This document shows, one piece after another, positions 59,627-64,000 of a stretch of 64,000 nt of DNA. Origin of the DNA: Candidatus Solibacter usitatus (lineage in GTDB: Bacteria > Acidobacteriota > Terriglobia > Bryobacterales > Bryobacteraceae); NCBI GenBank assembly GCA_016185465.1, contig JACPNO010000031.1, positions 1 to 64,000 of the forward strand. Direction: 5' to 3'. Under the pieces are notes generated by a model. That model was not told where the DNA came from, did no database searches, and worked only from the letters and a program-made list of their open reading frames with translations. The translations under genes and the position numbers were made by a program. Numbering within the stretch: position 1 is the stretch's first letter; the number at the start of each line of letters is the position of its first letter.

Positions 59627-60430
59627 ATGCGCCTCCGGTCCGTATTTCTGATAACAGTCACGGCGGCTCTCTACCTGACGGCGCTGTTCGCTCAGCGCGG
59701 CTTCAAGACCTACCCCTACGAGGAAGTCAACCCGACCGAAGTGCCCGCGGGGTTCGATGAAAAAACAGAATGGACGTTCGCGCGTCTGCGCTATCCCTCC
59801 GGCCGTTACGGCGGCTATTGGGGCCGCGGTTCCTGGGGCATCGATTTTCCCAAAGCCGACCGCACATTTGTAAAAGGGGTGAAGCGGCTGACCCGTCTGC
59901 ACGTGCGCTCCGCCGAGCAAGTCGTGGACCTCGATCTGGATGACGATGAGATCTATTACTGGCCCTGGGTTTATGCGGTTGAAGTCGGCCACTGGGATCT
60001 GACCGATGCCCAGTGCAAAAAGCTGCGCGATTACCTGCTGCGCGGCGGTTTTTTGATGGTGGACGACTTCCACGGCACCTTCGAGTGGGAGATTTTTCTC
60101 AACGGGATGAGGCGCATTTTCCCCGACCGTCCGGTGGTGGATATTCCGGCCAAAGACGCCATCTTTCACGTGCTCTACGACGTCGATGAGAAAATTCAAG
60201 TGATGGGGACCGTTACTTTCGGCAGCGGACGCACGTATGAATATGATGGAGTGGTTCCCACATGGAAGGGCGTTTATGACGATCGCGGCCGGGTCATGGT
60301 CGGAATCTGCCACAACCAGGACAATGGCGATGCGTGGGAGTGGGCGGATTCACCGCAATATCCCGAAAAGGCAGCCTCGCAGGCCTTTCGCCTCGGGATC
60401 AACTACATCATCTATGCCATGACGCATTAA
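59627..60430 (+). CDS. DUF4159 domain exported protein
   Basis: 267 residues. A signal peptide (residues about 1-22, LTALFAQ) is followed by FKTYPYEEVNPTEVP and the DUF4159 core with RLTRLHVRSAEQVVDLDLDD, LRGGFLMVDDFHGTFEWEIF and GICHNQDNGDAWEWADSPQY. DUF4159 has a glutamine-amidotransferase-like fold without an evident catalytic triad. It is commonly adjacent to MoxR/VWA-type membrane genes. It starts an apparent operon, separated from the VWA protein by 27 bases. Confidence 0.85.
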   Translation: MRLRSVFLITVTAALYLTALFAQRGFKTYPYEEVNPTEVPAGFDEKTEWTFARLRYPSGRYGGYWGRGSWGIDFPKADRTFVKGVKRLTRLHVRSAEQVVDLDLDDDEIYYWPWVYAVEVGHWDLTDAQCKKLRDYLLRGGFLMVDDFHGTFEWEIFLNGMRRIFPDRPVVDIPAKDAIFHVLYDVDEKIQVMGTVTFGSGRTYEYDGVVPTWKGVYDDRGRVMVGICHNQDNGDAWEWADSPQYPEKAASQAFRLGINYIIYAMTH

Positions 60431-60457: not shown

Positions 60458-62710
60458 ATGTTCGAGTTTCTATTCAAATATCCGACTACGATTTTTGCCA
60501 AAGGACAGTTCGTGTTCCTGGCTCCGTGGCCGGCCTGGGTTTTGGCGCTGGTGGTGGTTGCGGCGGCGGCCGCTCTGGCTTGGAACGTCCAGCGCAATCG
60601 TGGATTGCTGACCGGCTTTCGCCCCCTGGCGATCTGGCTGCTGGAAACGGCGCTGGTCGCGCTGGTTTTGTTCCTGCTGTGGCATCCGGCAATCAGCATC
60701 GCCACGCTGCGCCCCCAACAAAACGTGGTGGCTGTTTTGGTGGACGATTCGCGCAGCATGGCTATCAGCGAAGACGGCGCCACCCGGCTGGGGCAAGCTA
60801 AGGACCTGCTGAATGGACCTCTGCTTACCGCGCTGCGCCAGAAATTTCAGGTGCGCCTGTACAAGTTCGGCAAGAACCTGGAGCGCGTTGAAAAGCCGGA
60901 GCAGCTCACCGGGGCGTCGGAAGCCACGCGCATTCCCGATAGCCTGAAGCAGGCGCTGGCCGAAGCCGCCACGCTGCCGCTGGGCGCGGTGGTGGTGATG
61001 AGCGACGGCGCCGATAACTCGGGCGGTATCGATCTGGACACCATCGCGCAGATTCGCCGCGCCGGCGTGCCGGTCCACACGATTGGCTTCGGACGGGAGA
61101 AATTCGCCAAGGATGTCGAGATCTCCGAGGTATCGCTCGCGGCTCGCGCGCTGCCCGATTCGCGCCTGGACGCGCAGGTGACCTTTCAGCAATCGGGGTA
61201 TAGCCGCGACAAGGCGCGTCTCACGGTGCGCGACGGCGGCAAGGTGCTGGCTACGCAGGAAGTGGTTTTCAAAGCCGATGGCGCGCCGCAGACCGAATCC
61301 ATCGTGTTCAATGCCGGCCTGGCCGGTCCGCGAACCTTCCAATTCACGGTCGACCCATTGCCGGGCGAAGAGAATCTGAAAAACAATCAAGTCACGCGGC
61401 TGGTGAATGTCAACGCTTCCAAGCCGCGCATTCTTTATGTAGAGGGCGAGCCGCGCTGGGAGTTCAAATTCATCCGCCGGGGGGTGGAAGATGACCGCAA
61501 TCTGCAAATCGTCAGCATGCTGCGCACCACCCAGAACAAACTGTACTGGCAAGGCATCGACAACGCCGATAAGAAGAAGCTGGACGAAGGCTTCCCCGCG
61601 AAGGCGGAAGAATTGTTCGAATACAGCGCGCTGATTATCGGCAGCGTGGAGGCGGGATATTTCACCCCGGCTCAACTGGAGCTGATTCGCGAATTTGTAA
61701 ACCGCCGTGGAGGCGGGCTGCTGTTTTTGGGCGGACGCTCGGCGCTTTCCGATGGCGGCTGGGCGCACTCGCCGCTGGCGGAGCTGCTGCCGGCGCGCAT
61801 CCCGGAAACCAAAGGCACGTTTCACCGTGACAACGCGACTGCCGAGCTCACCCAGCGCGGGCGCGAAAACCTGATCGTGCGCCTGGAAGAGAAGCCGGAA
61901 GCCAATGCCGCCCGTTGGAAAAAGATGCCGGTGATCGCCGATTACCAGCAGGTGGGCGAGCCTAAGCTGGGCGCGGCGGTATTGCTCGATGTCGTCGCGG
62001 CGGGCAAGCGCTCCCCGCTGCTGGTGGTCGAGAATTACGGCCGGGGACGGACGGCGCTGTTCGCCACCAGCGGAAGTTGGCGCTGGCAGATGCTGCAACC
62101 GCTGGCCGATAAGACCCACGAAATGTTCTGGCAGCAATTGCTGCGCTGGCTGGTGTCGGAATCGCCCGGCCAGGTGATGGCGTCGACGCCGCGCAGTTTG
62201 CTATCCGACGACACCAAAGTTGTGCTGCGGGCCGAGGCTCGCGATAAGAGCTTCAAGCCCATTTCGAACGCCCGCGTGGAGGCGCACATTTCGGGGCCGG
62301 ATGGAACGGCGGACACCGTTGAGCTTACGCCGGTGCCGCTTGAAGAGGGCGTGTATAGCGCGGAATGGGCGGCCGAGAAGCCCGGCTCGTACATGGCCGA
62401 AGTGGTGGTGCAGCAGGACAAGGCCGACGCCGGCCGGGATGTGGTGATTTTCCGGCGCGAAGATGGCATCGCGGAAAATTTTCACTCCGCGCAGAACCGT
62501 GAACTGCTGGAAAAGCTGGCGCAGCAGACGGGCGGGCGCTACTATTCCGGGAAGAACGCCTCCAAGCTGGCGGAGGAGATTTCGTATTCCGAAGCCGGCA
62601 TCACCATTCGGGAAACCAAAGATCTTTGGGACATGCCCATCGTATTTCTAGCCGCAATTCTGCTGCGCGCATCCGAATGGCTGCTGCGCAGGAAGTGGGG
62701 CGTGGTATGA
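60458..62710 (+). CDS. VWA/GATase-like membrane protein (BatA-related)
   Basis: 750 residues. Two N-terminal transmembrane helices (about 26-44 and 57-77) precede a von Willebrand-type domain, whose metal site is VLVDDSRSMAI (DxSxS at 96-100) with VVVMSDGADNSGG later. A GATase-like segment starts at about 325 (RILYVEGEPRWEFKFIRRG) and contains GGGLLFLGGRSALSDGG. A beta domain and one C-terminal helix (FLAAILLRASEWLLRRKW) close it. VWA-plus-GATase proteins occur beside DUF4159 genes and MoxR ATPases, probably in assembly of an unknown outer complex. It overlaps the next gene by 4 bases. Confidence 0.86.
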   Translation: MFEFLFKYPTTIFAKGQFVFLAPWPAWVLALVVVAAAAALAWNVQRNRGLLTGFRPLAIWLLETALVALVLFLLWHPAISIATLRPQQNVVAVLVDDSRSMAISEDGATRLGQAKDLLNGPLLTALRQKFQVRLYKFGKNLERVEKPEQLTGASEATRIPDSLKQALAEAATLPLGAVVVMSDGADNSGGIDLDTIAQIRRAGVPVHTIGFGREKFAKDVEISEVSLAARALPDSRLDAQVTFQQSGYSRDKARLTVRDGGKVLATQEVVFKADGAPQTESIVFNAGLAGPRTFQFTVDPLPGEENLKNNQVTRLVNVNASKPRILYVEGEPRWEFKFIRRGVEDDRNLQIVSMLRTTQNKLYWQGIDNADKKKLDEGFPAKAEELFEYSALIIGSVEAGYFTPAQLELIREFVNRRGGGLLFLGGRSALSDGGWAHSPLAELLPARIPETKGTFHRDNATAELTQRGRENLIVRLEEKPEANAARWKKMPVIADYQQVGEPKLGAAVLLDVVAAGKRSPLLVVENYGRGRTALFATSGSWRWQMLQPLADKTHEMFWQQLLRWLVSESPGQVMASTPRSLLSDDTKVVLRAEARDKSFKPISNARVEAHISGPDGTADTVELTPVPLEEGVYSAEWAAEKPGSYMAEVVVQQDKADAGRDVVIFRREDGIAENFHSAQNRELLEKLAQQTGGRYYSGKNASKLAEEISYSEAGITIRETKDLWDMPIVFLAAILLRASEWLLRRKWGVV

Positions 62711-63633
62711 GACGCCTGCTCGCCTCGTTTTTATTTGCCGTGATTTGCGCGCCGGCGGCGACTTATTACGTGACCATCGCGGGCCTGGGCGGTGAGCCGG
62801 ATTACGAGCAGCATTTCGAAATGTGGGCCTCCGATATCGAGAAAATTCTCAAAGCCTCCGGCGGCGAGGGCAAGATCGAGACCTTGAAAGGCGCTGGCGC
62901 CACGCGCGTGGCGATTAGCGCGCTGCTGGGAAAGATCGCCGGCGAAGCCACGGCTCAGGATGTGCTGGTGGTCATGCTGATCGGGCACGGCACGTTTAAC
63001 GGATTCGATTACAAGATCAACCTGCCGGGTCCGGATTTGTCGGCTGACGATCTGGCTAAACTGCTGGACAAGATTCGCGCCTCACGCCAGTTGGTGGTGA
63101 ATATGACCAGCGCGAGCGGCGGGTCGATCAATGCGCTGGTGCATCCCAACCGCGTGCTGATCACCGCCACCAAGACGGGCAGCGAGAAAAATGCCACCGT
63201 GTTCACTCGCTACTGGCTGGAAGCACTGCGCGATCCAGCCGCCGACACTGACAAAAACGATACGATTTCGGCGCTCGAGGCCTTCCGCTATGCCCAGCAG
63301 AAGACCGCAAATTTTTACGAAACCCAGAAACGGCTGGCCACCGAACACGCGCTGCTGGAAGATACCGGAGTGGGTATAGGCGTGCGCGCGCCGGCCGCCG
63401 AGAACGGCAACGGTCTGCGCGCGGCGGCGTTTCCACTGCTGCGTTTGGGGTCGGCGCAGGCGGCCGCGGCCACTCCGGAGAAACGCAAGCTGTTCGATAA
63501 GAAGGAAGAGCTGGAGCAGGAAATCGACAAGCTGAAGTACCAAAAAGCTGCGATGCCCGCCGAAGAATATAAGAAGGGCCTGGAAGCGCTGCTGCTGGAA
63601 CTGGCTAAGACGCAGGAAGAGTTGGATAAGTGA
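62707..63633 (+). CDS. Caspase-fold-like exported protein with Ser at the nucleophile position
   Basis: 308 residues. Signal peptide 1-18 (LLASFLFAVICAPAAT). The fold order resembles C13/C14 (caspase/legumain-like) domains: LVVMLIGHGTFNGFDYKINL contains the histidine GHG motif, and after another strand the segment RQLVVNMTSASGGSINALVH aligns with the position where active enzymes have DACxSG; here no cysteine is present. The C-terminal 45 residues are a predicted coiled coil (KKEELEQEIDKLKYQKAAMP). It may be an inactive scaffold of the VWA/TPR operon. An active protease is unlikely. Confidence 0.72.
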   Translation: MRRLLASFLFAVICAPAATYYVTIAGLGGEPDYEQHFEMWASDIEKILKASGGEGKIETLKGAGATRVAISALLGKIAGEATAQDVLVVMLIGHGTFNGFDYKINLPGPDLSADDLAKLLDKIRASRQLVVNMTSASGGSINALVHPNRVLITATKTGSEKNATVFTRYWLEALRDPAADTDKNDTISALEAFRYAQQKTANFYETQKRLATEHALLEDTGVGIGVRAPAAENGNGLRAAAFPLLRLGSAQAAAATPEKRKLFDKKEELEQEIDKLKYQKAAMPAEEYKKGLEALLLELAKTQEELDK

Positions 63634-64000
63634 CGCGACTTTTCCAATGCGTGGTCGTGTTGTGCGCGGCAGCGGCCCTGCAGGCGCAAACCCTGGAACG
63701 CGCCGAGGCGCAGCGCAAAGCGCGCAACTACGAGGAAGCCAATAAGACGTTTCGCGCCCTGGTTGCCGCCAATCCCAAGAACGCAGAATACCGAGTCCGC
63801 TGGGGCCGCCTTTTTCTGGAGCGCTTCAACCGCGCCGACGCCAACGCCTTGTTTCTGGAAGCGCTGGCCATTCAGAAAGATCACGCCGGAGCGCTACTGG
63901 GCTTGGCGCTGGTCGCCGCCGACAGCTACGAAACCCGCGCCGTCGAGTTCGCCGAAAAAGCCCTGGCATCGGATCCCAAATTGGTCGAAGCGCGCGAACT
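63630..64000 (+). CDS. TPR-containing exported protein, cut by the window end
   Basis: From GTG 63630, which overlaps the preceding stop (GTGA). A signal peptide (LFQCVVVLCAAAALQA) is followed by helical repeats: ARNYEEANKTFRALVAANPK, AEYRVRWGRLFLERFNRADA, NALFLEALAIQKDHAGALLG. These match the tetratricopeptide pattern of periplasmic scaffold proteins. 123 codons are visible with no stop. Coupling to the pseudo-caspase suggests a structural partner; the product may be a peptidase-like TPR protein further on. Confidence 0.82.
   Translation, partial: MTRLFQCVVVLCAAAALQAQTLERAEAQRKARNYEEANKTFRALVAANPKNAEYRVRWGRLFLERFNRADANALFLEALAIQKDHAGALLGLALVAADSYETRAVEFAEKALASDPKLVEARE

Follow-up and report, generated by a model that had tools for sequence, protein, structure and literature searches.

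A gene cluster around a predicted secreted pseudo-peptidase

The window analyzed here, i.e., the first 64,000 bases of a contig of 73,450 bases, ends inside a gene cluster whose remaining members we read from the contig. By their start positions, the cluster comprises genes for a DUF4159 protein (59,627), a VWA/GATase1-like protein (60,458), a pseudo-peptidase (62,707), a TPR/Peptidase_MA protein (63,630), MoxR (65,770), DUF58 (66,808), BatA/VWA (67,695), and DUF4175 (69,698). The pseudo-peptidase ORF overlaps by 4 bp both with the stop of the upstream VWA gene and with the start of the downstream TPR gene. The features of interest in the window are as follows:

59,627–60,430, forward strand: DUF4159 protein with a signal-like N-terminus (PF13709, E = 6.9e-42)
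60,458–62,710, forward strand: membrane VWA protein whose VWA domain carries GATase1-like and Ig-like domains as inserts (model, MIDAS)
62,707–63,633, forward strand: pseudo-peptidase of 308 amino acids with a predicted legumain/metacaspase (C13-like) fold (ORF, model, structural and profile matches)
62,707–62,757, forward strand: predicted Sec signal peptide, residues 1–17 (hydrophobic N-terminus, TM-like segment)
62,983–62,991, forward strand: GHG motif, residues 93–95, whose His94 takes the place of the catalytic His (by alignment with metacaspase-4 and GSU0716)
63,100–63,126, forward strand: NMTSASGGS, residues 132–140, with Ser135 (63,109–63,111) at the probable Cys position (end of beta strand 127–134)
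63,244–63,279, forward strand: EF-hand-like loop, residues 180–191, DTDKNDTISALE (pattern in 184 of 195 homologues)
63,475–63,627, forward strand: C-terminal helical hairpin, residues 257–307 (secondary structure of the model)
63,630–64,000, forward strand: start of the TPR/Peptidase_MA gene, which runs to contig position 65,726 (HExxH..EG kept)

The ORF at 62,707–63,633 that an earlier sequence-only reading had singled out is a real gene. Homologues are present in 54 of 61 genomes (the window's own among them), nearly always as a single copy, and dN/dS values of 0.05–0.33 across 31 close pairs indicate purifying selection without decay, which together exclude a chance ORF. In a sample of the phylum, 100 of 297 genomes gave a match, part of these being short, weak matches to other caspase-like proteins, and the distribution outside Acidobacteriota is covered by one Gemmatimonadota plasmid. 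No relative was found among the viral contigs searched.

The encoded protein consists of a signal-like N-terminus, one legumain/metacaspase-fold domain, and the helical hairpin. Its only TM-like segment spans residues 4–22, and a hydrophobic N-terminus recurs in 45 of 46 homologues, which suggests that the protein is secreted; our guess at the cleavage site is between APA and the following A. The tail, previously described as a coiled coil, appears in the AlphaFold2 model as two helices (257–278 and 285–307).

The VWA/GATase1-like gene lies adjacent upstream, judged by distance, in 175 of the 181 testable cases. In two of the six exceptions, the VWA gene is found at a distance of 480 and 884 bases, and in the remaining four another TPR gene stands upstream. 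Gene order was counted in the 116 loci from L031 on that offered more than 3,500 bases upstream and more than 3,000 downstream. By marker order, the VWA gene directly precedes the pseudo-peptidase in 112 of these, while MoxR and DUF58 follow downstream in 95 and the TPR/Peptidase_MA gene comes next in 93. The coupling to VWA and TPR genes that had been read from the sequence thus holds and widens to a MoxR/DUF58/BatA/DUF4159/DUF4175 cluster.

A second cluster type with the order BatA-DUF4175-VWA-pseudo-peptidase, in which the pseudo-peptidase comes last and no TPR/Peptidase_MA gene adjoins, accounts for 12 of the 116 loci (L178, L182, L188, L194, L195, L200, L203, L206–L209, and L225), several of them with E, A, or G at residue 135. 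All eight families also occur in one stretch on the 1.1 Mb plasmid 1 of Gemmatirosa kalamazoonensis (Gemmatimonadota; L226), where the pseudo-peptidase sequence is spread across two frames and has a non-Cys site.

The model of the VWA protein (pLDDT 87.5) contains a BatB-like VWA domain (Z 18.7) and a GATase1-like domain that matches STM3548 (Z 25.4). The VWA domain is split by the GATase1-like and Ig-like insert, with its last helix and strand near residue 712. Positive residues between the first two membrane helices suggest that the large part of this protein is periplasmic, which agrees with the signal-like N-termini of the DUF4159, pseudo-peptidase, and TPR proteins. Among uncut ORFs, 112 of 113 full-length VWA homologues retain the MIDAS motif, and 93 of 95 TPR/Peptidase_MA homologues retain HExxH..EG. 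Two neighbors of the pseudo-peptidase have therefore kept their motifs while its own Cys is missing (see below).

Predicted fold

The AlphaFold2 model of the 308-residue protein (pLDDT 94.1, pTM 0.88) comes closest in structure to legumain (Z 20.9, rmsd 2.6, 198 residues aligned), with metacaspase-4 at Z 19.6, and its predicted sheet fits the caspase/haemoglobinase fold shared by legumain, caspases, and metacaspases. By itself, the protein reached the cut-off of none of the families in Pfam or NCBIfam, and the sole match of a single-sequence phmmer search against the PDB was judged to be chance. Via the GHG region, a profile of 46 homologues (A1) matched the bacterial caspase-like protein GSU0716 (E = 5e-4) and, more weakly, plant metacaspase-4 (E = 0.015); an ACE2 chain in the same search (E = 0.0024) was taken as chance. 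With a broader profile of 84 members (A2), the metacaspase-4 match reached E = 2e-6.

Peptidase_C13 (PF01650) is matched by 27 of these 84 members individually at E≤1e-3 (best 1e-9) and by 16 of the 46 at E≤0.1, and at the curated cut-off the 308-residue protein has no match and 2 of 41 genomes have a place above it. Peptidase_C14, the p20 domain of pseudo-orthocaspases, is matched by 7 of 46 members at E≤0.1 and by 1 of 84 at E≤1e-3, with the Cys of the dyad substituted. HHalign of the homologue family against local C14 domains gave a probability of 98.8 (E = 4.4e-16). The caspase/legumain fold that had been proposed from motif and strand order alike is thus what both structure prediction and profile searches return.

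The active site lacks its cysteine

Of the two hallmarks of an active clan CD peptidase, the family has the catalytic His in an HG motif and lacks the catalytic Cys where the next strand ends. We examined this in 195 distinct homologues, obtained from 219 matches above 60 bits by collapsing sequences with identical C-terminal 280 residues (L051–L056 were dropped as copies). His94 is His in all 195, as part of GHG in 189 and GHA in 6. Residue 135 is Ser in 179, Thr in 4, Ala, Asn, and Glu in 3 each, Pro in 2, Gly in 1, and Cys in none. G108 and D110 are invariant, and S137 is Ser in 190. As a control, 30 C14 domains from relatives (of 57 places listed; one from the window's own genome) carry the His in 30 and the Cys in 29 cases.

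Placing Ser135 at the Cys position rests on short alignments and should be read as probable. It draws on the ungapped alignment of DSAHSG of metacaspase-4 (C139A entry) with TTSASG of the profile, on the equal spacing to the SG, and on the model, in which a strand ends at 134 and a helix starts at 137 around Ser135. The A1 profile alignment with GSU0716 instead sets residue 136 opposite the Cys, with a gap, and the HHalign path against C14 is interrupted by a gap at precisely the Ser and leaves the register undecided. A Cys at position 136 occurs in 22 of the 195 homologues, and the window protein has Ala136.

The claim that Ser stands in place of the Cys is borne out, and Ser is common yet not invariant. 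In a 91-row tree made by a quick method with residues 134–138 left out, Ser versus non-Ser at position 135 takes 11 changes; starred branches force 10 of these, i.e., Ser135 appears to have been replaced at least 10 times independently. One clade of 8 rows (including L148, L150, L155, L159, L160, L175, and L197) has Cys136 in 7 of them, and in 4 of these 7 residue 135 is Asn or Thr, possibly reflecting a migrated nucleophile.

A putative calcium-binding loop

A feature absent from the sequence-only reading is the 12-residue loop at residues 180–191, which follows an EF-hand pattern (D1, D3, N/D5, E12) in 184 of the 195 homologues, with D180 kept in 193 and E191 in 194. Of the 30 C14 controls, 6 have a comparable loop whose pattern differs slightly. 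The loop of the pseudo-peptidase is possibly Ca-binding.

A probable non-proteolytic subunit of an envelope machine

We consider it likely, with a probability of roughly 0.6, that the protein is a non-proteolytic descendant of clan CD (legumain C13/metacaspase-like) peptidases, now firmly built into a periplasmic MoxR-VWA envelope machine as one of its subunits. This reading builds on the predicted fold, the missing Cys alongside a retained His, the N-terminus that resembles a signal peptide, the purifying selection on the gene, and its fixed neighborhood, and it explains the secretion and the drifting Ser along with them. In such a machine, the pseudo-peptidase would dock on the presumably periplasmic VWA/GATase1-like membrane protein, the product of the gene just before it. 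A peptide or other envelope ligand could be bound by the former active-site pocket (His94 plus the invariant G108 and D110) together with the possibly Ca-binding loop, and the C-terminal hairpin may form a bridge to a partner, for example the TPR/Peptidase_MA protein. Cytoplasmic MoxR and DUF58 would then remodel membrane VWA proteins in response. Several points count against this interpretation: Ser is more predominant (179/195) than expected for a free position, Cys136 in 22 of 195 homologues could be a migrated nucleophile in those lineages, the TPR/Peptidase_MA gene adjoins in 93 of 116 clusters rather than in all, and the alignments that place Ser135 at the Cys position are short.

The earlier reading had left the choice between a non-proteolytic scaffold and a serine variant, and our data favor the scaffold because the protein and its His persist even where Ser has given way to T, A, N, E, P, or G. 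That most members could still be serine variants of a clan CD peptidase with an active Ser135-His94 dyad appears unlikely, even though Ser135, His94, and S137 are so frequent, the spacing S-x-S-G equals C-x-S-G, and Ser135 aligns with the metacaspase-4 Cys. Against it stand the 16 of 195 homologues with another residue at this site. By motif alignment, E34 of the window protein would also fall on Arg44 of the legumain S1 pocket. Moreover, clan CD is described by a His/Cys dyad in a review (PMC4357240). The independent losses of Ser argue against an obligatory serine peptidase, which we reject, as we do annotation as an active C13/C14 peptidase in view of the complete lack of Cys at position 135. 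Even less probable is a nucleophile that migrated to Cys136 in some lineages, with the A/S136 majority as derived pseudoenzymes. The GSU0716 alignment with its gap fits this idea, as does the clade described above, which includes all four rows with N/T135; however, the ungapped metacaspase-4 alignment puts residue 135 at the Cys, the tree requires 6 changes for Cys136 and lacks this residue over most of its extent, and the idea is inapplicable to the window protein with its Ala136.

A special case of the non-proteolytic subunit, and a tentative one, is that the pseudo-peptidase activates or feeds substrates to the neighboring, apparently intact TPR/Peptidase_MA metallopeptidase, similar to the pair MamO-MamE. 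The adjoining and overlapping genes, the frequency of this gene order, and the intact HExxH..EG argue for it, and there is precedent in MamO, a pseudoprotease described as activating its partner protease and binding metal (PMC4794232). It is weakened by the 12 clusters that end with the pseudo-peptidase after DUF4175-VWA and lack an adjoining metallopeptidase, and by the VWA gene being the more constant partner. A role as a component of a MoxR-vWA conflict system, i.e., in defense, with inactive caspases as decoys or peptide binders, seems highly improbable. Passages of PMC7159879 describe ternary systems of this kind in which about 70% of the caspase domains at the effector position are inactive, and 23 of 84 family members show weak similarity (E≤0.01) to the EACC1-associated caspase model. 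Yet PADLOC gave no match for the eight cluster proteins except a weak one for MoxR, which tentatively speaks against a defense system; this MoxR protein exceeds the bpMoxR cut-off (43.3 versus 27 bits) and scores far higher with AAA_3 (204.7 bits). Pfam scans of the eight cluster genes listed no VMAP, iSTAND, FtsH, or beta-propeller as a third component. The pseudo-peptidase is, furthermore, nearly always single-copy in relatives, sits in a fixed neighborhood, and is apparently secreted, and no variable effector was seen.

Going beyond the non-proteolytic subunit as such, one might speculate, at rather long odds, that a periplasmic VWA/GATase1-like/MoxR envelope machine found across the phylum has taken up the legumain fold as a core subunit that bears a calcium loop and binds ligands, and whose retained His pocket would read an envelope peptide and license the neighboring metallopeptidase, and that Cys136 in one acidobacterial clade may restore catalysis.

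Comparison with known systems

The Rhizobium operon RL3499–RL3502 reportedly includes DUF58, DUF4159, and GATase1-like families as well, and is not known to contain a pseudo-legumain or a TPR/Peptidase_MA gene. Like the cluster described here, this operon contains a MoxR gene, RL3499, which is described as important for membrane integrity and cell morphology (PMC3893208), and it was the subject of a paper (Vanderlinde 2011) whose title is cited in PMC5118466. By analogy, as far as these passages go, the process served by the present cluster is likely envelope integrity.

Legumain (C13) is the nearest relative in fold and resembles the family in being secreted and in having an HG histidine and a helical C-terminal extension. 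It differs in that the family has no Cys at the nucleophile position and the window member no Pfam C13 match; the predicted tail is a two-helix hairpin rather than the five-helix LSAM domain described for legumain (PMC4357240). Pseudo-orthocaspases share the caspase fold, a Cys that is replaced, often by Ser, presumed inactivity, and in some cases export signals (PMC6426788). The dyads reported there are YS, YA, FS, QC, and HA, i.e., the His is usually lost too, whereas the present family keeps it throughout, is nearer to C13, and has its gene fixed in a MoxR-VWA cluster. Dyad substitutions are described as frequent in several phyla, with 0% conservation in Gemmatimonadetes from a single sequence (PMC3501461). 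The MoxR-vWA ternary conflict systems likewise combine MoxR, VWA, and often inactive caspase domains, while the present family is predicted to be secreted, nearly always single-copy, and phylum-conserved, and no hypervariable effector was seen (compare PMC7159879). MamO is comparable as a protease fold repurposed in a bacterial envelope system and differs in belonging to a serine-protease (MamE/MamO) family with a magnetosome function (PMC4794232).

Pseudo-caspases as such are already known, and what looks new is a single-copy, secreted, His-retaining, C13-like core member of an operon. Compared with known pseudo-caspases, the family stands out by its closeness to C13, a His that does not vary, and a cluster that stays the same. 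In the titles and abstract openings returned by searches on pseudo-caspases, acidobacterial C13/legumain, and MoxR with these genes, we found no description of it. Where members of this family in Acidobacteriota match C13, they should not be taken for active peptidases. Its position inside the MoxR/DUF58/BatA/DUF4159/DUF4175 cluster provides a handle on linked genes of little-known function, and single-copy conservation makes a clean knock-out test feasible in cultured Acidobacteriota. For DUF4159, a literature search returned nothing; besides the cluster copy, the relatives G001, G020, and G024 have 6, 7, and 9 further DUF4159 matches per genome, respectively.
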